A DNA stretch of 64,000 nucleotides, taken from Mariprofundus sp. (lineage in GTDB: Bacteria > Pseudomonadota > Zetaproteobacteria > Mariprofundales > Mariprofundaceae). This document shows, in pieces, positions 47,999 to 58,502 of the stretch. The translations under genes and the position numbers were made by a program. Positions within the stretch are counted from its first letter, which is position 1. The number at the start of each line of letters is the position of its first letter. The notes beneath the pieces are model-generated. The model worked only from the letters and a program-made list of their open reading frames with translations, was not told the origin of the DNA and made no database searches. The DNA lies in NCBI GenBank assembly GCA_021772775.1, contig JAJFLH010000034.1:1-64000 (forward strand). The letters run 5' to 3'.

Positions 47999-48478
47999 TC
48001 AGCTTTCCCTCAACCAGACGCCTGATTTCCCGCCGCGTTTTTCATCGAGTTGAATGGCTGTGATTCGCATACCTTTATCAACGGCTTTGCACATATCGTA
48101 GATGGTAAGCAGTGCAGTAGTGACTGCGGTTAGCGCTTCCATCTCCACACCTGTTTTGCCGTTGCATTTGACCGACACTTCCACTTTTAGGCCACAAATT
48201 TCGTCCAGCTCGGTGAACGCCACATCAATACCAGATAGCATCAAAGGATGACACATCGGAATCAGATCAGGGGTTTTCTTAGCACCCATCACTGCAGCCA
48301 CATCGGCGACCGCCAATACATCACCTTTTTTCAATTTACCCTGTTGAATATGCTGCAAGGTTTCCGGCAGCATATGAATTTCACCGCTGGCAATGGCAAT
48401 GCGGGTAGTTACATCTTTGCCCGATACATCCACCATTCGAGCTCGGCCGCTGGCATCAAAATGGGTTAGTTCACTCAT
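47999..48478 (-). CDS. moaC: cyclic pyranopterin monophosphate synthase MoaC
   Basis: This second Moco enzyme makes cyclic pyranopterin monophosphate after MoaA. It has 159 residues. Conserved parts are LTHFDASGRARMVDVSGK, IPMCHPLMLSGIDVAF and GKTGVEMEALTAVTTALLTIYDMCKAVDKGMRI, the last with the catalytic Lys/His environment. It follows modC at a short gap and belongs to the moaA-modABC-moaC block. Confidence 0.95.
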   Translation of the reverse strand: MSELTHFDASGRARMVDVSGKDVTTRIAIASGEIHMLPETLQHIQQGKLKKGDVLAVADVAAVMGAKKTPDLIPMCHPLMLSGIDVAFTELDEICGLKVEVSVKCNGKTGVEMEALTAVTTALLTIYDMCKAVDKGMRITAIQLDEKRGGKSGVWLRES

Positions 48479-48481
48479 AGT

Positions 48482-49147
48482 TCATTCCTCTGCTCTCAGC
48501 AGTTCTGATATTGGTTTTACCTCAGCCAACAAACGTCCTTCTCGCATATGCCAGTGTGAGTCCGCTAACAATTTCGCATCTTCCACATCATGGCTGACCA
48601 TCACAACAGCTATCTTTAACTCTTCTACCACCGCTTTCAATACCACACGCAACCGTTGTCGAATAGCGGGAGCCTGAGCTGAAAAAGGTTCATCCAGCAA
48701 TAGTAGTGCTGGCCGTTTAAATATAGCTCTAGCTAAAGCTACCCGCTGTGCCTCACCGGTTGAAAGCATGTGCGGTTTGCGCTGCATCAATGGGCTGATT
48801 TCCAATAACTCGGCCAGCTTCATCAAATCACCATGATCGCTATCCTCTGAACCCAGTTTGATATTCCGCTCAACACTGAGCCAGGGTAGTAGAGCCGTAT
48901 CCGTCCACAGGCAGCCAACATTGCGCTGTTCTACAGGCAGACTAAACCCGGCACTGCTATCAAGCCACACCTGCCCTGTGACATGGATCTGACCACCAGC
49001 CATCTCTAAACCGGCCAGACAACGCAGCAAAGTACTTTTTCCTGCTCCATTTTCACCTGAAATCAGCGTGATACCGACTGAGATGGAAGACTCCACCAGC
49101 AGACTTAATGAACCCAATTGGGCTGAGATATGAATAGAGGAGCTCAT
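48482..49147 (-). CDS. modC: molybdate ABC transporter ATPase ModC
   Basis: This ATPase of the molybdate importer has 221 residues. Walker A is SGENGAGKSTLLRCLAGL, the signature LSTGEAQRVALARAI and Walker B LLLLDEPFSA. It lacks the C-terminal MOP (molybdate-binding) domain of full ModC, which makes it a short form. ATG 49147 overlaps the modB stop by four bases. ModC here clearly belongs with modB and modA. Confidence 0.88.
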   Translation of the reverse strand: MSSSIHISAQLGSLSLLVESSISVGITLISGENGAGKSTLLRCLAGLEMAGGQIHVTGQVWLDSSAGFSLPVEQRNVGCLWTDTALLPWLSVERNIKLGSEDSDHGDLMKLAELLEISPLMQRKPHMLSTGEAQRVALARAIFKRPALLLLDEPFSAQAPAIRQRLRVVLKAVVEELKIAVVMVSHDVEDAKLLADSHWHMREGRLLAEVKPISELLRAEE

Positions 49148-49815
49148 TTCACAGTCACCATATGCATACCGTTGCGATTGATGGCATAAACCAGAGATAA
49201 CATAGCGAAACATACTGCCATCAGAATCAGCGCCAGCATCAACGCTTCCGACTGTTGCTGCATTTCAACAAACTCAAACAGGGCAATGCTCGCCACTTTG
49301 GTTTCACCCGGAATCGAACCACCTACCATCAACACCACACCAAATTCACCCATGGTATGAGCAAAAGAGAGTACAGCCGCAACCAACACTCCACCCTTAG
49401 CTGCTGGTAAAATCACCTGCCATAAAGCTTGTCTTACATTCAAACTTTGAGTTTTTGCCATCTCCAACCAGCTGACCGGGATTGCGCGTAGTGCCTGTTG
49501 CATCGGCTGTACTGCAAACGGCAGTGAATATAATACTGATGCAACCACCATGCCTGAAAATGAGAATGCTAAAGAGCTATCAAACAGCGCTTGCCAAGCA
49601 CGACCCAGTGTTGAATCAGGTGCGATCATCAACAGCACAAAATAACCCAATACGGTTGGAGGTAAAACCAGCGGCATCGCCACCACCACCTCCAGCAGGG
49701 TACGGCCTAAAAACTGTTTAAAGGCCAGTAGATAGGCAAGGGGAAATGCTAACACTAACAGTATCAGTGTGGTTACCAGTGCCAGTTGTAGAGAAATCAA
49801 CAGCGACTCTAGCAT
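49144..49815 (-). CDS. modB: molybdate ABC transporter permease ModB
   Basis: This inner-membrane permease has 223 residues and about five TM helices. The permease motif is near EMAKTQSLNVRQALWQVILPAAKGGVL (the EAA loop). The ATG at 49815 is three bases after the modA stop (TGA), and modC overlaps at its end. Frame extension into modA is not used. Confidence 0.9.
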   Translation of the reverse strand: MLESLLISLQLALVTTLILLVLAFPLAYLLAFKQFLGRTLLEVVVAMPLVLPPTVLGYFVLLMIAPDSTLGRAWQALFDSSLAFSFSGMVVASVLYSLPFAVQPMQQALRAIPVSWLEMAKTQSLNVRQALWQVILPAAKGGVLVAAVLSFAHTMGEFGVVLMVGGSIPGETKVASIALFEFVEMQQQSEALMLALILMAVCFAMLSLVYAINRNGMHMVTVK

Positions 49816-49817
49816 AA

Positions 49818-50570
49818 TCAGCGCATCACCAGCTGTTGATCCGAGCTCTTGTATCTGAGCACCATATTTTCCAACCACTGATTTACTGCCTTTTTATCGA
49901 TCAATGAGACAGCATGATATTGAATCGAAGCGATATGTGGCTGCACCGAACTCACCGGTATAAAACCGGCATCAACCACACCCCGGTTAACCATCATACT
50001 TGCTTGCATGGCATTCTGCGCATAAACCATTTTAGGTTTGAGCAACTGCCATAATCCTTTCTCTTCCAAGACCTGTTTACTGACCTGACCAAAGGGTGCG
50101 ACATCAGGATTGGCGATCGCAATATGTCGAATAGAAGAATCCAATAACAGAGCTGGATCAGCCTGCACTTTCATCCCTATCTTCACACCCAGATAAGCCC
50201 GACCCACTTGCAAGTGAGAGACCACTTTACCCTGTTTTTCCAAGAGAGCCGGACGCTGTTGATCGGCTGCAATAAAGGCATCAAAAGGTGCCCCCTGCAT
50301 GATCTGATTGTACAAACGCCCTGTTGAACCCGATACCAAACGCACAGTAATACCATGCTCTGTTTCAAATGCTTTAGCCTGCTGCTGGGCCATGGGATAC
50401 AAGCTCGATGCCACAGCAATCGTGATTGTTTCTTGTGCATGAGCAGAGACAGGGATAAAACCAAGCATTAGCCACAGATACCCCAGGGCACCCACTTTAG
50501 CGCAGGCGCGATTCACCTTGTTAACGCAGATATACGCAGATAAGGCCTTCAATCGAATGACTGAATTCAT
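49818..50570 (-). CDS. modA: molybdate-binding periplasmic protein ModA
   Basis: This periplasmic binding protein captures molybdate. The mature part begins QETITIAVASSLYPMAQQQAKAFE and includes VSGSTGRLYNQIMQGAPFDAFIAADQQRP and VAPFGQVSKQVLEEKG, all ModA-like. The first 33 codons come from a dispersed repeat (50468-50652) that runs into the gene: its GTGGCTAA end lies directly before the codon Met35. The reading frame passes into the repeat and gives a plausible signal peptide (KVGALGYLWLMLGF...AHA-Q). The start could be GTG 50516, ATG 50570 or the Met35 codon. Expression may depend on which is used. Confidence 0.88.
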   Translation of the reverse strand: MNSVIRLKALSAYICVNKVNRACAKVGALGYLWLMLGFIPVSAHAQETITIAVASSLYPMAQQQAKAFETEHGITVRLVSGSTGRLYNQIMQGAPFDAFIAADQQRPALLEKQGKVVSHLQVGRAYLGVKIGMKVQADPALLLDSSIRHIAIANPDVAPFGQVSKQVLEEKGLWQLLKPKMVYAQNAMQASMMVNRGVVDAGFIPVSSVQPHIASIQYHAVSLIDKKAVNQWLENMVLRYKSSDQQLVMR

Positions 50571-50652
50571 TGTTTCATTCCGCTTAACAATGGCTGGTAG
50601 GAGTTCTTTATTCCCGCCTTACATCTGTGTGCATCTCTGTTTATCTGTGGTT
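50468..50652. repeat. dispersed inverted-repeat element, copy 5 (in the modA start)
   Basis: TTAGCCACAGATACCCCAGG (50468 on) and the right end ATCTGTGTGCATC...ATCTGTGG form the arms. It overlaps the 5' end of modA and fills the gap to moaA. Confidence 0.75.
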
Positions 50653-50663
50653 CATTCATCATT

Positions 50664-51707
50664 TTAACCACCGATTGAAATCATAGAGCGTTTTTCATCA
50701 TCGGCATCAAATTTATAGGTACCGACCTCCGGTTTGATCAGTGCTGAACGAAAAAAAACTGCTCGGATATCATGATCACTACCACCACTGCGTATCACAT
50801 CTCGCAGATTCAGTTGATCATCATCAGGCAGACAGGAGCGTAAACCACCATCAGCTGTCAAACGCAGACGATTACAACCTTCACAAAAGCGTTCGGACAT
50901 TGGCATAATAAAACCAACTTCACCCTGCCCATTTTTTAGTGAAAGATAACGCGCTGCCGAATTACCAGTCTGTAAAGCTGACTCAACTTTGACCCGTTGC
51001 GCCACATCATCTCGACTCAACACTTCATCAATACCGATATAATGCTTGTCCCAATCCATGCCCTGCTTCATTGGCATAAGCTCAATAAAACGAATCGTAG
51101 CCTGCTCTGCAATGGCAAAATCAATCAATTCAGCCACTTCACTATGTTCATCACCGGCATTAATACCACGCATCAAAACCGTATTAATTTTAATTGGCCC
51201 AAGACCGGCATCACGAGCAGCTTGAATACCAGCCAGAACAGGAGCCAGCTCACCACCAGTCAATTTACGAAAGCGTAGTGGATTCAGGCTATCCAGACTG
51301 ACATTGATACGATCTAGACCTGCATCGGCCAGAGTTTGAGCATATTTGCCCAATAGCGTGGCATTGGTGGTCATTGAAATATCTTTAATACCATCAATAG
51401 AGGCGAGCTTTTCAATCAAATCGGGCAGATCACGACGCACCAGTGGCTCTCCACCGGTGATACGCAACTTGGATACCCCCATCTGCGCAGCAATACGGGC
51501 AATACGTTCAATCTCTTCATAACGTATCACCTGATCATGCGCTTCAGCTTTATAGGAATCAGATGCAGGTCTGCAATAGTCGCAGCGCATATTACAGCGA
51601 TCTGTCACCGAAATACGCAGATAGGTGAGCTGACGATCAAAACGATCCATCAGCACCCCGTCATCTGGCCTCGATTCAAAAAAACGAATAGGCGTTGCTT
51701 CAACCAT
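50664..51707 (-). CDS. moaA: GTP 3',8-cyclase MoaA
   Basis: This radical SAM enzyme starts Moco synthesis from GTP. It has 347 residues. The N-terminal 4Fe-4S is at Cys38-x3-Cys42-x2-Cys45 (DRCNMRCDYC). The C-terminal cluster is FCEGCNRLRLTADGGLRSCL, and the protein ends in the conserved Gly-Gly (SIGG). It is the first gene upstream of the repeat and modA on the same strand. It follows the nap/porin genes. Confidence 0.95.
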   Translation of the reverse strand: MVEATPIRFFESRPDDGVLMDRFDRQLTYLRISVTDRCNMRCDYCRPASDSYKAEAHDQVIRYEEIERIARIAAQMGVSKLRITGGEPLVRRDLPDLIEKLASIDGIKDISMTTNATLLGKYAQTLADAGLDRINVSLDSLNPLRFRKLTGGELAPVLAGIQAARDAGLGPIKINTVLMRGINAGDEHSEVAELIDFAIAEQATIRFIELMPMKQGMDWDKHYIGIDEVLSRDDVAQRVKVESALQTGNSAARYLSLKNGQGEVGFIMPMSERFCEGCNRLRLTADGGLRSCLPDDDQLNLRDVIRSGGSDHDIRAVFFRSALIKPEVGTYKFDADDEKRSMISIGG

Positions 51708-51736
51708 GAATATCCTCTCTGCTAATACTCACGTCC

Positions 51737-53014
51737 TCAGAATGCATATTGAGCTAAAGCATAGCCAAACTTGGCCGAATCAGCTTTGCCACCATTACGT
51801 TCAGATACAGCGGAACCCGCATTGAAAACACCATAGAGAGCAACCAGTTTTAAGCCTTTCACAGCAGCCACTTTATAGACAACTTTAACATCAATTTCAG
51901 TACCCACTCTGGTTTGCGTATAAGCCGCATTACCAGCAAAGACATTGCCTGCACCGACAACATTCAGCCAATCACCCTGTGCTTTATCCAGCGATAGGAA
52001 GTGCACATTACCCATAATGGCTAAGCCTTTGAGCGGGGATGTCTTCAAAGATAGACGGATATCTTTCATATTCGCCCATGAGAAGAAATCCATTTCACCA
52101 TAGTGAGCGTGATTGGTATGAAATGGAAATACAAAATCCTTATGTGTTGCTGCATTCTTTTTATCATCGCCTGGACTGAAATCATACTCCACACCAAGGC
52201 GTGTTTTCCAGAAGTCGAATGTATAACCCAATTTTGCGGCATAAGCTGATGCTTTCTGTGACACATTCGTAGCCCAAGTACCCGACTGGATTACCGCTTC
52301 CGCACTACCGTCAAAGCCGTTGTACTTACCAAATAGACGTGCGCCATAGGTGTGCATATTACGACCCTTACCAATCGCGGCCTGCTGGTTGTGACGCCAG
52401 TTGATGAAATAGGTATCAATACCACTCTTCGGAGCCAGTGTGTAAGTCGCATAAGCACCAATTAAACGGCGATCTTCCCAAGTTACCAATGACTGCCCCT
52501 GCGGAGCTGCCGCTGTAGGTGTCATCGCACCAATATCCGATGGGTGAACTGCAAATGCATCAAAGGAGATGGCATCTGTTTTATACATCGCTTTCACACC
52601 ATCAAAGGTACGTGCCACATCTTTCCAACCCAAATGCCCCAATAGACGCTGCTCACCGTAGACCAACTGCTGACGACCAAGACGCACACCGAAATCTGAC
52701 ACATTGTATTGCAGATAAGCTTGCAACAGATCTGCCTGGCTCAAGTTTTGTGTACCGACACCGGTTGTATTATTCTGAATCAATACCGCCTGCGGCTGAA
52801 TGAATACCGTCAATCCATTGCCAAAATCACCTTTTGCTTTCAGATAGAGACGGGAATCGAACTCCCAGCGATCATTATTAACGGCTGAATTAAAATTAGA
52901 ATTATTAAACGATTGATAACGCTCGCGCAGATCCGCTGACACAGTCCAATCAGCCGCCTGAGCCAAGCTAGAAAAGCTTAATGCCATCACTAATAAAGCT
53001 ATTTTTTTAAACAT
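51737..53014 (-). CDS. outer-membrane porin, alginate-export-like
   Basis: This predicted outer-membrane beta-barrel has 425 residues. A signal peptide ends LAQAADWTV. The mature part has the alternating strands of the alginate-export/OprB-type porins (WTVSADLRERYQSFNN, RLGRQQLVYGEQRLLGHLGWKDVARTFDGVKAMY) and ends in Phe (LAQYAF), the outer-membrane targeting residue. AAAGGAG before the ATG at 53014 is strong. Its place next to napB suggests a nitrate or nitrite pore, but the actual substrate is not known. Confidence 0.8.
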   Translation of the reverse strand: MFKKIALLVMALSFSSLAQAADWTVSADLRERYQSFNNSNFNSAVNNDRWEFDSRLYLKAKGDFGNGLTVFIQPQAVLIQNNTTGVGTQNLSQADLLQAYLQYNVSDFGVRLGRQQLVYGEQRLLGHLGWKDVARTFDGVKAMYKTDAISFDAFAVHPSDIGAMTPTAAAPQGQSLVTWEDRRLIGAYATYTLAPKSGIDTYFINWRHNQQAAIGKGRNMHTYGARLFGKYNGFDGSAEAVIQSGTWATNVSQKASAYAAKLGYTFDFWKTRLGVEYDFSPGDDKKNAATHKDFVFPFHTNHAHYGEMDFFSWANMKDIRLSLKTSPLKGLAIMGNVHFLSLDKAQGDWLNVVGAGNVFAGNAAYTQTRVGTEIDVKVVYKVAAVKGLKLVALYGVFNAGSAVSERNGGKADSAKFGYALAQYAF

Positions 53015-53094
53015 TTCAAAACTCCTTTTAGTAGTTCCACGGCGTAACAGAACCTTGATAGGTATCTGCCAGCCTTCATCATGGAACAATCTGT

Positions 53095-53523
53095 TTATTC
53101 TTCAGACAGTGATTTAAACGAATTAAACACCAATGGTTTTGTGTTCTTCTGAGGCACATGGCATTGGGTGCAGAAATAACGACGTGGAGAGATCTTTGCT
53201 AGCGCCTCGTTATTGCGGTTTTCAAAGTGTGAGGTACCCACTTTGGTTGCGCCCTCCACCGTCGAATCCCAGTTATGGCAAGATAAACAGTCGTTTCCAT
53301 CACGATTGACACTGAAGTCTTCAATATCGTGCGGTACCAGTGGAGGCTGTTGAGCATAGTTACGCTGGATTTTCCCTTCACCATCCTGCCATTGCTTATC
53401 CGGCACAGCGATTGAAGCTGAATCAAGTGGTTTATCTCCACGTAAAGAGTGAACACTGTCTGCACCGGCCCAAGCCATCGAAGAACAAGCTAGTAATCCA
53501 GCAATTATGACAATTTTTTTCAT
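53095..53523 (-). CDS. napB: periplasmic nitrate reductase small subunit NapB
   Basis: This dihaem cytochrome c passes electrons to NapA. It has 142 residues and a signal peptide ending AWAG. Haem sites are Cys79-x2-Cys82-His83 (CLSCH) and Cys118-x2-Cys121-His122 (CTQCH). His65 and His99 are likely distal ligands. AGAAG precedes the ATG at 53523. It follows napA closely. Confidence 0.95.
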   Translation of the reverse strand: MKKIVIIAGLLACSSMAWAGADSVHSLRGDKPLDSASIAVPDKQWQDGEGKIQRNYAQQPPLVPHDIEDFSVNRDGNDCLSCHNWDSTVEGATKVGTSHFENRNNEALAKISPRRYFCTQCHVPQKNTKPLVFNSFKSLSEE

Positions 53524-53534
53524 CGTCTTCTCCC

Positions 53535-56051
53535 CTATGCCTTGATGATGCGCACAGCGCATTTCTTATAATCGGTCTGTTTGGACAGTGGATCAGTTGC
53601 ATCCAGTGTGACCTTATTGATCAAGCGGCGAGCATCAAACCATGGCACAAAAATCAGCCCTTCAGGTGGTTTATTACGCCCACGCGTTTCTATCATGGCC
53701 ATGATCTCACCACGTCTGCTCTGCACTTTCGCCATTTGACCACGTTCAAGGCCGCGTTTTTTAGCATCAGCAGGATGCATAAAGATCTGTGCATCCGGCA
53801 TCGCTTTGTAGAGCTCAGGCACACGTTGCGTCATGGTTCCTGAATGCCAGTGCTCAATTACACGCCCTGTACACAACCACATATCGTATTCTGCATCCGG
53901 CATTTCAGGTGGCTGTTCATATGGCGCAAAAATGATATTGGCCCGGCCATCTTTCTTACCATAAAAGTAGACCTCTTTTCCAACGGGAACAAAAGGATCA
54001 GAACCTTCGCGGTAACGCCATTTTGTCTCTTTACCGTTAACCACCGGCCAACGCAGACCACGCACTGTATGTAAATGATCGTATGCAGCCAGATTATGCC
54101 CCTTCTTAGGCCCTTCCAAACCAAAGCGGCGATACTCTTCAAACAGACCTTTCTGCACATAGAATCCGAAATAATCCATCTCATCATTGGCGTAGACATT
54201 GCCAGCAGAATCTGTGATTTTTTGAGCTGGAAACTTATCCACACTACCGTTTTTATAGAGCACTTCGTAGAGGGTTTTATTACGCAGTTCCGGTTGTTTG
54301 GCAATCAGATCCTCTGGCCAAATATCTTTCACTTTAAAACGTTTGGAGAACTCCAACAGCTGCCACACATCAGACTTTGCACCTTCCGGCGCATCCACTT
54401 GCTGACGCCACGCTTGAGTCCGACGCTCAGAGTTACCGTAAGCGCCCTCTTTTTCCACCCACATGGCCGTTGGTAAAATCAGATCGGCCGCCATAGCTGA
54501 AACGGTAGGATATGGATCAGATACCACAATAAAATTATCTGGATTACGATAGCCCGGCAGTGTCTCTTCATTCATATTGGCGGCAGCCTGTACATTGTTA
54601 ACGCACAAGGTCCAATATGCATTAATAACACCGTCTTTTAACATACGGTTATGCTGCACCGCATGATAACCGGGTTTGGCTGGAATCGTGCCTTCAGGCA
54701 ATTGCCATATTTTTTCAGAAAAGTCGCGATGACTCTTCTTCTTCACAACTAAATCAGCCGGCAGACGATGTGAGAATGTACCTACTTCACGCGCTGTACC
54801 ACAAGCAGATGGCTGTCCAGTCAAAGAGAACGGGCTGTTACCCGGTTCTGAAATCTTACCCATCATCAGATGGATATTATAAAGCAGACTATTGGTCCAA
54901 ACACCGCGTGTATGCTGGTTGAAACCCATCGTCCACAATGAAGTAATTTTTTTCTTCGGATTGGCGTAGAGCTTGGCCAAACGCAGTAGGTTTTCTTTCG
55001 GTACTGATGACAGTTTGGACGCATGCTCCAAAGTATAAGGCTTCACCAGTTCGGCATACTCTTCAAAGGTACTTTTAGACAGCTTACCTTTACCTGCATT
55101 TTTGGCTTTTTGCTCCAGTGCATGTTCTGGTCTAAGCCCATATCCAATATCCGTTGGTGTTGTCTTGAAATTCACATGTTTCAGCATGAATTTTGCATCA
55201 TACGATTTGGTTTCAATAATATAATTGGCAATATAGTTCAAAATCACCATATCAGTCTGCGGTGTAAACACCATGCCGTTATCCGCCAGGTCAAAACAAC
55301 GATGTTCGTAGGTGGATAGTACATGTACTTCAGAATCAGGTTTGCTCAAACGGGTATCGGTAATCCGTGTCCACAAAATTGGATGCATCTCGGCCATGTT
55401 CGAGCCCCACAATACAAAGGCATCAGCATGTTCGAGATCATCATAACAACCCATCGGTTCATCTGAACCAAAGGTGCGCATAAAAGCACCCACTGCCGAA
55501 GCCATGCAGTGACGCGCATTAGGGTCAAGGTTATTAGAACGAAAACCGCCCTTCATTAACTTGGAAGCAGCATACCCTTCCAGAATTGTCCATTGACCGG
55601 AGCCAAACATGCCAATGGCTTCAGGACCTTTTTCCTTCAGCGTTTTTTTCCACTTCTCTTCCATCACATCGAAAGCTTTTTCCCACGAGACCGGCGTAAA
55701 TTCACCCTCTTTATGGTATTTTCCACCTTTCATGCGCAATAGCGGACTGGTCAACCTGTCTTTGCCATACATGATTTTGGATAGGAAATAACCCTTGATA
55801 CAGTTGATGCCCTTATTCACTTCAGATTTAGGATCAGCCTGCGTAGCAACAATACGATTGTCTTTTGTACCCACCAAAACGCTACAACCCACACCACAAA
55901 AACGACAAGGCGCTTTATCCCAACGAATTTTATTCTTCTCTGCATCAAACATATCCATGCCATGTACCGCCGTCGGTATACTGACATTGATGGACGCAGC
56001 CGCCGCAGCTGCCGCACTTGATTTAATGAATGTTCTGCGTGTTAGCGCCAT
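53535..56051 (-). CDS. napA: periplasmic nitrate reductase catalytic subunit NapA
   Basis: This molybdoenzyme reduces nitrate to nitrite in the periplasm with bis-MGD. It has 838 residues. The twin-arginine signal is [10 protein letters not shown]. The 4Fe-4S ligands are Cys49, Cys52, Cys56 (CRFCGVGC) and Cys84. The Mo ligand is Cys182 in [12 protein letters not shown]. Later domains hold molybdopterin ([43 protein letters not shown]). AGGAGG before ATG 56051 supports that start. It overlaps napD. Confidence 0.96.
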
Positions 56052-56347
56052 TTCCAACCTCCTGGTTGCTCTTCCTGTCTATGATCTTCGCTATGTTGGT
56101 ATACCGGTGTCACCTGCAAGACCCCGTCAAAATTTTGAATTGCCTCAGTTAGTTTCAACACAGCCTTGCTTGTCGCGGCTTCCATGGTGATAACCAGACG
56201 CGATTGTTCATCTTCAGCATGAATCTCTACACCTTCACATTTACCCAGTTGCTGGCGCACTTCGTCACTGCTTTTCTGCGTTTTCAGTTGAACCACTGCT
56301 CCTACGATGCAACCAATCGGCTCTTCTTCAATACTGTTATCCTGCAT
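56042..56347 (-). CDS. napD: NapA maturation chaperone NapD
   Basis: This cytoplasmic Tat-signal chaperone guards NapA before export. It has 101 residues. [47 protein letters not shown] fits the ferredoxin-like NapD fold. The ATG overlaps the napF stop by 11 bp, and its 3' end overlaps napA. The full order is napF-napD-napA-napB. Confidence 0.92.
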
Positions 56348-56831
56348 ATTTAACCTCGATCGCCTGCGCCGGGCACGGTGCTACACAAGCACCACAACCA
56401 CTACAGGCATCTAAATTTATTTCCGGTTGAGCGACTGCGCCGATCACCGGTCTGAAACGAATAGCCCGGGCTTCACACTGCTCACCGCAAGTCGTGCAAA
56501 TCACCTGCTGTGCAGCCAGACATGCATCATTAACAACCGCTTTGATTATCCACGCTAAAGGCTGAGAACGAGTCAGAGCAGCGCTTGGGCAGCTTTCCAC
56601 ACAATCACCACAAAAGCTGCATTCGCCACATCTGAAGTCGACGATGGGGTAACCATTCACACCTTCGCGAATTAATATTTTCTCAGGACAGGCGGTGATG
56701 CAATCACCACAACGCGTACAGGAATCTTGAAAATCTATTTCATCTAAAGCCCAGGGAGGGCGAACAGGGTAAGTCGTATTCTTTCGATTAAAACTTAGAA
56801 ACTGCCGACGATTTAATTGGCTAGGAAACAT
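56337..56831 (-). CDS. napF: ferredoxin-type protein NapF
   Basis: This accessory Fe-S protein of nitrate reduction has 164 residues. Four cysteine clusters are seen: CTRCGDCITACP, CGECSFCGDCVESCP, a looser C...CTTCGEQC, and CSGCGACVAPCP, the usual NapF set. AGAAGGA sits just before ATG 56831. It heads the nap operon; a likely promoter lies 34 bp upstream of the start. Confidence 0.92.
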   Translation of the reverse strand: MFPSQLNRRQFLSFNRKNTTYPVRPPWALDEIDFQDSCTRCGDCITACPEKILIREGVNGYPIVDFRCGECSFCGDCVESCPSAALTRSQPLAWIIKAVVNDACLAAQQVICTTCGEQCEARAIRFRPVIGAVAQPEINLDACSGCGACVAPCPAQAIEVKYAG

Positions 56832-56864
56832 ATATCCTTCTGTACCGATTTTGAAAACAAATGC

Positions 56865-56893
56865 ATTGTAATAATCTGATTTTAGCGCAACAA
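56865..56893 (-). promoter_or_regulatory. possible promoter of the nap operon
   Basis: On the minus strand TTGTTG, a 17-bp spacer and TACAAT lie just before napF. The -10 is good, the -35 moderate. No clear FNR or NarL site is visible. Confidence 0.4.
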
Positions 56894-57077
56894 CCATCTG
56901 TTTTACTCATATATTAAAAGCATTTTAGTCGGGTACTGAACCCACTTTTCAATCTGTTCATGCCCTCAATAGATCATGTTACTGGACTCATCATCAACAC
57001 GCATTTCATAAGCAAGTCGCCTGCCAATAATCTCACCTTCTCAAGATCATTATTCAGTTATATTAGAAAATAAACGC

Positions 57078-57839
57078 CTAACTCAGTCGACAGCACGAGC
57101 TTCTCCCCTCCTTGACTGAATTATTCACTCTATATTCAGTCACACTATAAAATGAAAAAAAGATCTGATGATGAGAAATGATCTCAATACGTTTATCAAA
57201 AGGAGCCGCTACTTCGTTCAACAGAGTCTCAATATCTTCACACCAAAAACTATCCAGAAAGGGTTCCAGCCGGGTAATAATCCAACGACTTAGTGGAAAA
57301 CGGTATAAACAATGCCTTGTAGGCAATGGCCCATACTCTGTAATTAGTAATGAACCACCTGTTTTTAATGTACGCACGCACTCCTTGAGCGTATGGCAAC
57401 GCGCTTGATGCGGCATCTCATGCAGCAAAAAGAACAACACAATAGTAGAGAAACTATCAGACTTATAAGCCAGACATTCAGCATTCATGCGTGTCGCTAG
57501 TAGTTTCGTTTCCTCCACCATCTTCTGTTTCGCCAAATTCAACTGAACCGTGGCAACATCAGTAATATGCAATTTTGAAGGGTTAAGCTCTTTGATCAGA
57601 TTTGGAGTAAGTGATCCGTATACACAGGTGAGTTGCAATACACGCTCCAACGGAGCCTTCTTCAAACATGCCAGTGTGATGTTCATCAACTTTTGATACT
57701 GACCAAACAAAATAGCACTTATGATCATTTGGTGATCAAAAAACCACACAGCTCTGGGCCAGAGGTAGGCCCACCAATAGTGATGCGCCAAATATTCAGG
57801 TATACCATCACGAAAATAGCGGTAAAATTTAAACATCAT
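57078..57839 (-). CDS. rquA: rhodoquinone biosynthesis protein RquA-like
   Basis: This 253-residue class I methyltransferase-fold protein matches RquA, which turns ubiquinone into rhodoquinone by transferring an amino group from SAM. The match rests on YLAHHYWWAYLWPRAVWFFDHQMIISAILFGQY (17-49), the odd SAM-loop LQLTCVYGSLTPNL (near 68-80, in place of the usual DxGxGxG) and LFFLLHEMPHQAR. I recall these from the family and did not search. It lies at the end of the nap block, so it may support low-potential respiration. No quinone partner genes are next to it; ubiX and ubiK lie 30 kb away. Confidence 0.8.
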   Translation of the reverse strand: MMFKFYRYFRDGIPEYLAHHYWWAYLWPRAVWFFDHQMIISAILFGQYQKLMNITLACLKKAPLERVLQLTCVYGSLTPNLIKELNPSKLHITDVATVQLNLAKQKMVEETKLLATRMNAECLAYKSDSFSTIVLFFLLHEMPHQARCHTLKECVRTLKTGGSLLITEYGPLPTRHCLYRFPLSRWIITRLEPFLDSFWCEDIETLLNEVAAPFDKRIEIISHHQIFFSFYSVTEYRVNNSVKEGRSSCCRLS

Positions 57840-58121: not shown

Positions 58122-58502
58122 TTAACTGTTTGTCGCTCTTTTGCTGCTTTCCCAGCTTTTTTTGGACTTTTCAGCCGTCCATTTGGCCGCTTTTCTGCCA
58201 CCTTCTTTGCTTGCTCTCCAAACCTTTTTGGATTGCTCAACCGTCCATTTGGCCGCATTGGCAACACCATCTTTGCTTGCCTGCCAAGCCATTTGCGATC
58301 TCTCAGCGGTCCAGTCTACTGCATTGGTACTACTCTGTTTGCCAGCTTGCCACCCCTGTTTGGACTTCTCAACTGACCATTCAAGCAGGCTATTTGCACC
58401 CACTTTAGTTTTTTTCCACAAAACATTCTCTTCAGCTATCGCCTGAGAAGAGATACTCATCAGAGCAATGAGTGAAAATAAAATCATCACTATATTTTTC
58501 AT
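58122..58502 (-). CDS. secreted protein with 22-residue tryptophan repeats
   Basis: This exported 126-residue protein has a signal peptide ending SQAIAEE. The mature part is built of 22-residue repeats with Trp at 42, 51, 64, 73, 86, 95, 108 and 117, alternating gaps of 9 and 13. Each unit reads like W(T/S)xE(K/R)SK-xxW-xASK. This is the period of an 11-mer amphipathic helix, as in LEA-like or apolipoprotein-like proteins, and it would be strongly basic. I do not recognise a named family. The DNA repeats too, so unequal recombination may vary the copy number. Confidence 0.65.
   Translation of the reverse strand: MKNIVMILFSLIALMSISSQAIAEENVLWKKTKVGANSLLEWSVEKSKQGWQAGKQSSTNAVDWTAERSQMAWQASKDGVANAAKWTVEQSKKVWRASKEGGRKAAKWTAEKSKKSWESSKRATNS

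Follow-up and report, generated by a model that had tools for sequence, protein, structure and literature searches.

A divergent sister clade of RquA in Mariprofundus and other neutrophilic iron oxidizers

The DNA analyzed here (the window) is a stretch of 64,000 nucleotides from a Mariprofundus contig. An open reading frame encoding a protein of 253 amino acids, identified below as an rquA-like gene, occupies positions 57078..57839. It lies on the minus strand, a point left unstated in the first-pass annotation; the plus-strand reading of the same interval contains 12 stop codons. In minus-strand order the gene is followed, after a gap of 180 bp (earlier given as 250 bp), by napF (56337..56897; TIGR00402, 121 bits), napD (56042..56347; NapD chaperone model), napA (53535..56057; TIGR01706, 1459 bits) and napB (53095..53562; cytochrome c-type nitrate reductase subunit model), all on the minus strand, and then by an alginate-export porin and moaA, with molybdenum-transport-like genes and moaC after these. 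The upstream neighbor (58122..58502, minus strand) encodes a small exported protein with no Pfam match and no assigned function. This protein has a repeated W(T/S)xE(R/Q)SK-like motif (WT..SK type), and relatives of it are found near rquA in two other genomes. The host assembly is 3.1 Mb in size and 99.96% complete, and it contains one copy of the rquA-like gene; its class, the Zetaproteobacteria, was analyzed as a set of 78 genomes.

RquA, acting with SAM and Mn2+, converts ubiquinone to rhodoquinone, which is a low-potential electron carrier. The NCBIfam equivalog model for RquA, NF038261, matched the protein encoded at 57078..57839 with 180.4 bits (E=4e-53), 5 bits over its curated cut-off of 175 bits. 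UbiE-type models gave 22 to 37 bits, with TIGR01934 (UbiE) at 37 bits against a cut-off of 158, and the best competing model in the NCBIfam scan reached 38 bits. The Pfam matches consisted of generic methyltransferase and Ubie_methyltran domains alone.

In the phylogenetic tree that had been proposed as a check, the protein is placed with RquA and far from UbiE, the outgroup, which is more distant from it than canonical RquA is; assignment to UbiE or UbiG is dismissed on the tree, the bit scores and the motifs. It does not, however, fall within the canonical RquA clade (groups A and B), from which it and its relatives are separated by a long branch with 100/100 support. Identity is 62-73% to the nearest relatives and 31-33% to canonical RquA, and bit scores with NF038261 are 155-197 for the one clade versus 225-317 for the other. 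Judged by its sequence, the protein is a member of the RquA superfamily, yet of a divergent sister clade, here called type Z, and not of canonical RquA. The earlier identification as RquA thus stands as to kinship, to which both the bit score and the motifs attest, and has to be given up as to the canonical clade, in view of the sister position and the diagnostic substitutions described below. With the protein alone forced onto canonical RquA, an AU test returned p=0.078; the point at which canonical RquA attaches with respect to type Z is therefore not secure. Pairs of relatives of the gene have a dN/dS of about 0.06, which is strong purifying selection and indicates that the type-Z gene is in use. 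We found no discussion of the type-Z clade as such in the literature, including the available text of PMC13386864, whose supplementary tables may already list rquA genes of Zetaproteobacteria.

Residues were compared across 105 type-Z and 22 canonical RquA rows. The RquA-type start (YWWAYLWP) and the LTCVYGSLT loop reported in the first pass are both present in the protein. The loop contains an altered SAM motif I, C72-V73-Y74-G75-S76 (57612..57626, minus strand), in which Y74 and G75 do not vary across either clade; the UbiE sequence here is CGxG. A disrupted motif I is a described feature of RquA (PMC5953543), and in the protein studied the remaining class I motifs are kept. D94 (57558..57560, minus strand) is the equivalent of R. 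rubrum RquA D118, a residue with a role at the SAM site (PMC9814641) where it contacts the ribose, and it is invariant in all intact rows of both clades. The D143 position, counted from D118 accordingly, is occupied by N119 (57483..57485, minus strand), so that the second SAM aspartate is missing; asparagine is found here in 94 of 105 type-Z rows and aspartate in 20 of 22 canonical rows, the other two having asparagine. Of the corresponding R. rubrum mutants, only the D118A/D143A double mutant was assayed (PMC9814641). E. coli UbiE also has the equivalents of N119 and E168, and these residues by themselves are therefore no argument against SAM binding by type Z. The HE pair of the RquA superfamily, H140-E141 (57417..57422, minus strand), is present in all rows (105/105 and 22/22) and missing from UbiE, and is a candidate metal or quinone site; the surrounding FFLLHE motif of RquA is kept in the protein. 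Together with CVYG and this pair, the RquA-only features common to type Z and canonical RquA are P14, Y16, YWWAY, F33-F34, I43-L44, Q69, Q99, F137-L138, P143, Y169, LEPF (LEPF..W), W199 and Y231. Near-fixed in type Z are six replacements of canonical residues, namely N119 for D, E168 for D, L195 for A, R232 for Q, H36 for R and W27 for H, and type Z has an additional C-terminal segment around K216.

An AlphaFold model of the protein has a mean pLDDT of 93.5, and a Foldseek search with it returned SAM-bound yeast Coq5 (4obw) among the top matches, with a TM-score of 0.63. The protein is thus predicted with high confidence to adopt a class I SAM-methyltransferase fold of the Coq5/UbiE type. This fold, the Pfam Ubie_methyltran match and the N119 and E168 shared with E. 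coli UbiE could all belong to an ordinary quinone or small-molecule methyltransferase, UbiE- or UbiG-like, that has been miscalled as RquA. We regard this as very unlikely, given 180 bits for RquA versus no more than 38 for any other model, UbiE-type ones included, the tree position described above, a motif I (CVYG) that is no methyltransferase motif, and the presence in the host of UbiE as a separate gene beside ubiB.

An RquA-like gene, full or partial, was found in 31 of the 78 Zetaproteobacteria, in 19 of 39 good-quality genomes and in 13 of 23 genomes of the genus. In the Gallionellaceae, the family of Sideroxydans, it is present in 57 of 158 genomes; two of these genes are canonical (266 and 287 bits) and about 55 are type Z. 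The description of the gene as rare in the first-pass annotation therefore does not apply to its own group. Some 320 other Pseudomonadota genomes sampled yielded no type Z, bar one uninformative fragment, and their RquA sequences scored 225-317 bits. A scan of named genomes located type Z in Mariprofundus (including the cultivated Mariprofundus micogutta), Ghiorsea, Gallionella, Sideroxydans, Ca. Ferrigenium and other Gallionellaceae, and also in several vent or subsurface Gammaproteobacteria MAGs, in Rhodospirillales MAGs and in one Deltaproteobacteria MAG. Type Z is strongly enriched in the Zetaproteobacteria and Gallionellaceae, the two main lineages of neutrophilic iron oxidizers, kinship among genomes being ignored in this comparison. 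Although about 30 genomes of the class hold the gene, copies above 175 bits are present in 15 of the 78; intact copies score 155-186 bits, so the NCBI cut-off runs through a single clade and labels only part of it RquA.

The Gallionellaceae genes nest beside those of the groundwater Zetaproteobacteria L027 and L030 (support 98/95 and 96/80), which suggests transfer between the two groups of iron oxidizers. This nesting, together with the variation of rquA loci between genomes, makes the spread by transfer that had been proposed earlier likely. One Rhodospirillales MAG (G403) has both RquA types, canonical at 290 bits and type Z at 171 bits, though in a MAG this may reflect mis-binning. The closest relative of the protein (73% identity) is encoded on a 4.2 kb contig of an Emcibacter MAG (L099), and this Mariprofundus-like gene in an alphaproteobacterial bin suggests mis-binning or recent transfer. 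The type-Z gene of one Zetaproteobacteria MAG (L028/L123, G041) contains an in-frame TAG stop, which points to gene decay or to a mistake in assembly. A remoter RquA-like family (L224 and L225, from G590 and G610; 137-146 bits) has CAFGD replacing CVYG, and its N-terminal part includes a long hydrophobic stretch.

The first-pass annotation had proposed that the organism may switch quinone pools between nitrate use and fermentation or fumarate reduction. According to this proposal, the gene would carry out canonical rhodoquinone synthesis as part of the nap block, and the co-directional arrangement with napFDAB across a gap of 180 bp is in keeping with it. The gene is also commoner in Zetaproteobacteria that carry nap: napA is present in 11 of the 78 genomes, and rquA in 8 of these 11 versus 23 of the 67 without nap (p=0.02, kinship ignored). 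However, no conserved neighbors of rquA were found across about 30 Zetaproteobacteria loci. Nap is adjacent to rquA in the host genome alone, the nearest parallel being a genome (G063) in which they lie about 5 kb apart, and the other nap loci of the class are without rquA. The host genome yielded no NapC-type quinol dehydrogenase, and the window yielded no NapGH; no FNR-like site was detected between rquA and nap or upstream of rquA, and no promoter or terminator tying rquA to nap was found near rquA. With neither a conserved neighborhood nor an FNR-like site, the switch rests on the gene order of one genome; the host moreover has no FrdABCD, and we consider the proposal very unlikely. The region 48000-56900 of the window, with napFDAB, moaA, molybdenum-transport-like genes and moaC, has counterparts in most of the nap-bearing Zetaproteobacteria loci that were read, often with an alginate-export-type porin, and resembles a self-contained nitrate/molybdenum island; in some Zetaproteobacteria it is flanked by nasA- and nirD-like genes of the nitrate-assimilation type. 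Half-sites with the spacing of an FNR box (TTGAT-N4-ATCAA, up to 2 mismatches) number 79 in the whole window where 57 would be expected, a count that none of 100 shuffles reached; the excess is probably due to coding bias.

Both ubiE and ubiB of the ubiquinone pathway are present in the host genome, and no MenD was found above cut-off in the 78 genomes of the class. The host can thus draw on ubiquinone, and its class appears to lack the Men route to menaquinone; menaquinone made by this route was rejected as the other low-potential quinone on the same MenD result. UbiV, which belongs to the O2-independent ubiquinone pathway, was not found in the host genome and is present in 4 of the 78 Zetaproteobacteria. 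Canonical rquA is accompanied by that pathway in 73 of 84 genomes (PMC11707229). A search of the host genome for fumarate reductase, as suggested in the first pass, located one ordinary SdhCDAB of the forward type (sdhA_forward) plus NadB, and no FrdABCD or FrdA; fumarate reductase is a usual, though not strictly defining, partner of RquA. We found no published report of rhodoquinone in Zetaproteobacteria, Gallionella or iron oxidizers, and no quinone measurements for isolates of the Zetaproteobacteria in the literature.

Outside the Pseudomonadota, ubiquinone is well supported only in class GWC2-55-46 of the Desulfobacterota, according to PMC13386864, which also extends rhodoquinone to 24 orders. 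Given this restriction, the class of L113 in our set (63 genomes, 50 with UbiV) is very probably GWC2-55-46. Its 63 genomes contain no canonical RquA; the four strong RquA-like matches are two of type Z (L222 and L223, genomes G401 and G600) and two of the CAFGD type. In PMC13386864, rquA of one GWC2-55-46 genome, GCA_001595385.3, is reported to have given no rhodoquinone in E. coli (data not shown there), while the other GWC2-55-46 genes assayed in this host worked, except ubiK. Since the class of L113 has no canonical RquA, the gene assayed was probably non-canonical and perhaps type Z.

The gene context of relatives is the best functional evidence for type Z. The Lysobacterales MAG L178 has an operon rquA-frdA-frdB-frdC-frdD, in which the rquA is type-Z-like and shares four bases with frdA; the FrdA scores 934 bits against a cut-off of 854. 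The L178 protein forms a long, deep branch, is 43% identical to the Mariprofundus protein and has type-Z residues; an AU test did not reject its joining to canonical RquA (p=0.41), so this operon supports type Z only if the type-Z residues are decisive. At 7-8 gammaproteobacterial loci, type Z is found beside genes for pyruvate:ferredoxin oxidoreductase and often also malate dehydrogenase; a glutamate-synthase-like oxidoreductase, a small cytochrome c and a CxxCH membrane protein are often present as well. In two members of L113's class, type Z is near genes for nitrate/nitrite or other molybdopterin oxidoreductases. The frdABCD and pyruvate/malate settings, and not those with molybdopterin oxidoreductases, would be expected for a low-potential quinone. 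At 11 gammaproteobacterial loci the gene for this membrane protein, which has a CxxCH heme motif, is about 255 aa long and belongs to no NCBIfam family, adjoins type-Z rquA or lies close to it, and the protein recurs near both type-Z copies of G408; L134, L145, L152, L166, L238 and L239 are among all these loci.

Our preferred explanation is that type Z is a SAM-dependent, membrane-associated enzyme that modifies ubiquinone and represents a sister subfamily of RquA. It would catalyze the RquA reaction, in which the amino group of SAM replaces a methoxy group of ubiquinone to give rhodoquinone. In a microaerophilic iron oxidizer at the oxic-anoxic edge, this rhodoquinone would join the ubiquinone pool as a low-potential quinone, and could be used by complex II run as fumarate reductase or in other low-potential steps. 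On the evidence of sequence, type Z probably makes rhodoquinone or a close aminoquinone, and rhodoquinone synthesis appears, with modest confidence, to be its most likely activity. As type Z is a separate branch, rhodoquinone is its likely rather than its proven product. Several observations count against this explanation: the asparagine at the second SAM aspartate and the replacement of canonical D and Q by E168 and R232, the co-occurrence of both RquA types in one Rhodospirillales MAG, the lack of detectable FrdABCD and UbiV in the host genome with UbiV scarce in its class, and the negative E. coli test of the probably non-canonical GWC2-55-46 gene in PMC13386864.

A neofunctionalized RquA paralog might instead use SAM to turn ubiquinone, or an intermediate, into another aminoquinone, an isomer or an alkyl derivative suited to iron oxidizers. 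Such a change of function would agree with the clade-specific invariant swaps near the SAM site and the C-terminus (E168, L195, R232, H36 and W27), the long and fully supported split from canonical RquA, the presence of both types in one MAG, the enrichment in Zetaproteobacteria and Gallionellaceae, and the negative assay of the probably related GWC2-55-46 gene in PMC13386864. Yet every RquA-only motif is kept, the neighbors of relatives (frdABCD, or pyruvate/malate genes) are those expected with rhodoquinone, and the occurrence of N119 and E168 in E. coli UbiE means that SAM binding need not change; we consider this alternative possible but doubtful.

Iron oxidizers must push electrons uphill to obtain NADH, and to our knowledge their quinone chemistry has hardly been studied. 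A third RquA lineage in neutrophilic iron oxidizers of two unrelated classes might form part of an undescribed low-potential quinone system tied to iron oxidation, with a quinone other than rhodoquinone or with rhodoquinone used for something else than fumarate reduction, for example to drive electrons backward from Fe(II) to NAD+; this idea is speculative and we think it unlikely. Should rhodoquinone be the product of type Z, these lineages would commonly have low-potential quinones while lacking the anaerobic ubiquinone pathway that is their usual companion. If the product is something else, the NCBI RquA model mislabels part of a clade with another function. The cultivated carrier, M. micogutta, puts the question within direct reach of lipid extraction.

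Three known systems can be compared with type Z. The GWC2-55-46 rquA of PMC13386864 resembles it in that the RquA-like genes of L113's class, very probably GWC2-55-46, are non-canonical; the gene assayed there gave no rhodoquinone in E. coli. UbiE/COQ5 proteins share with type Z the class I SAM fold, N119 and E168 (as in E. coli UbiE) and probably a quinone-type substrate, whereas type Z lacks their GxGxG SAM motif and has the RquA-only N-terminus and the HE and LEPF motifs. Canonical RquA (NF038261; Rhodospirillum rubrum, Magnetococcus marinus) differs from type Z in sequence (about 32% identity), by D rather than N at position 143, at E168, L195 and R232, by the K216 segment and by higher scores, and type Z is without a UbiV partner in most Zetaproteobacteria. 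Canonical RquA and type Z nevertheless have in common their fold and length, the N-terminal YWWAY, CVYG replacing the SAM glycine motif, the D118 equivalent, and the HE and LEPF motifs.
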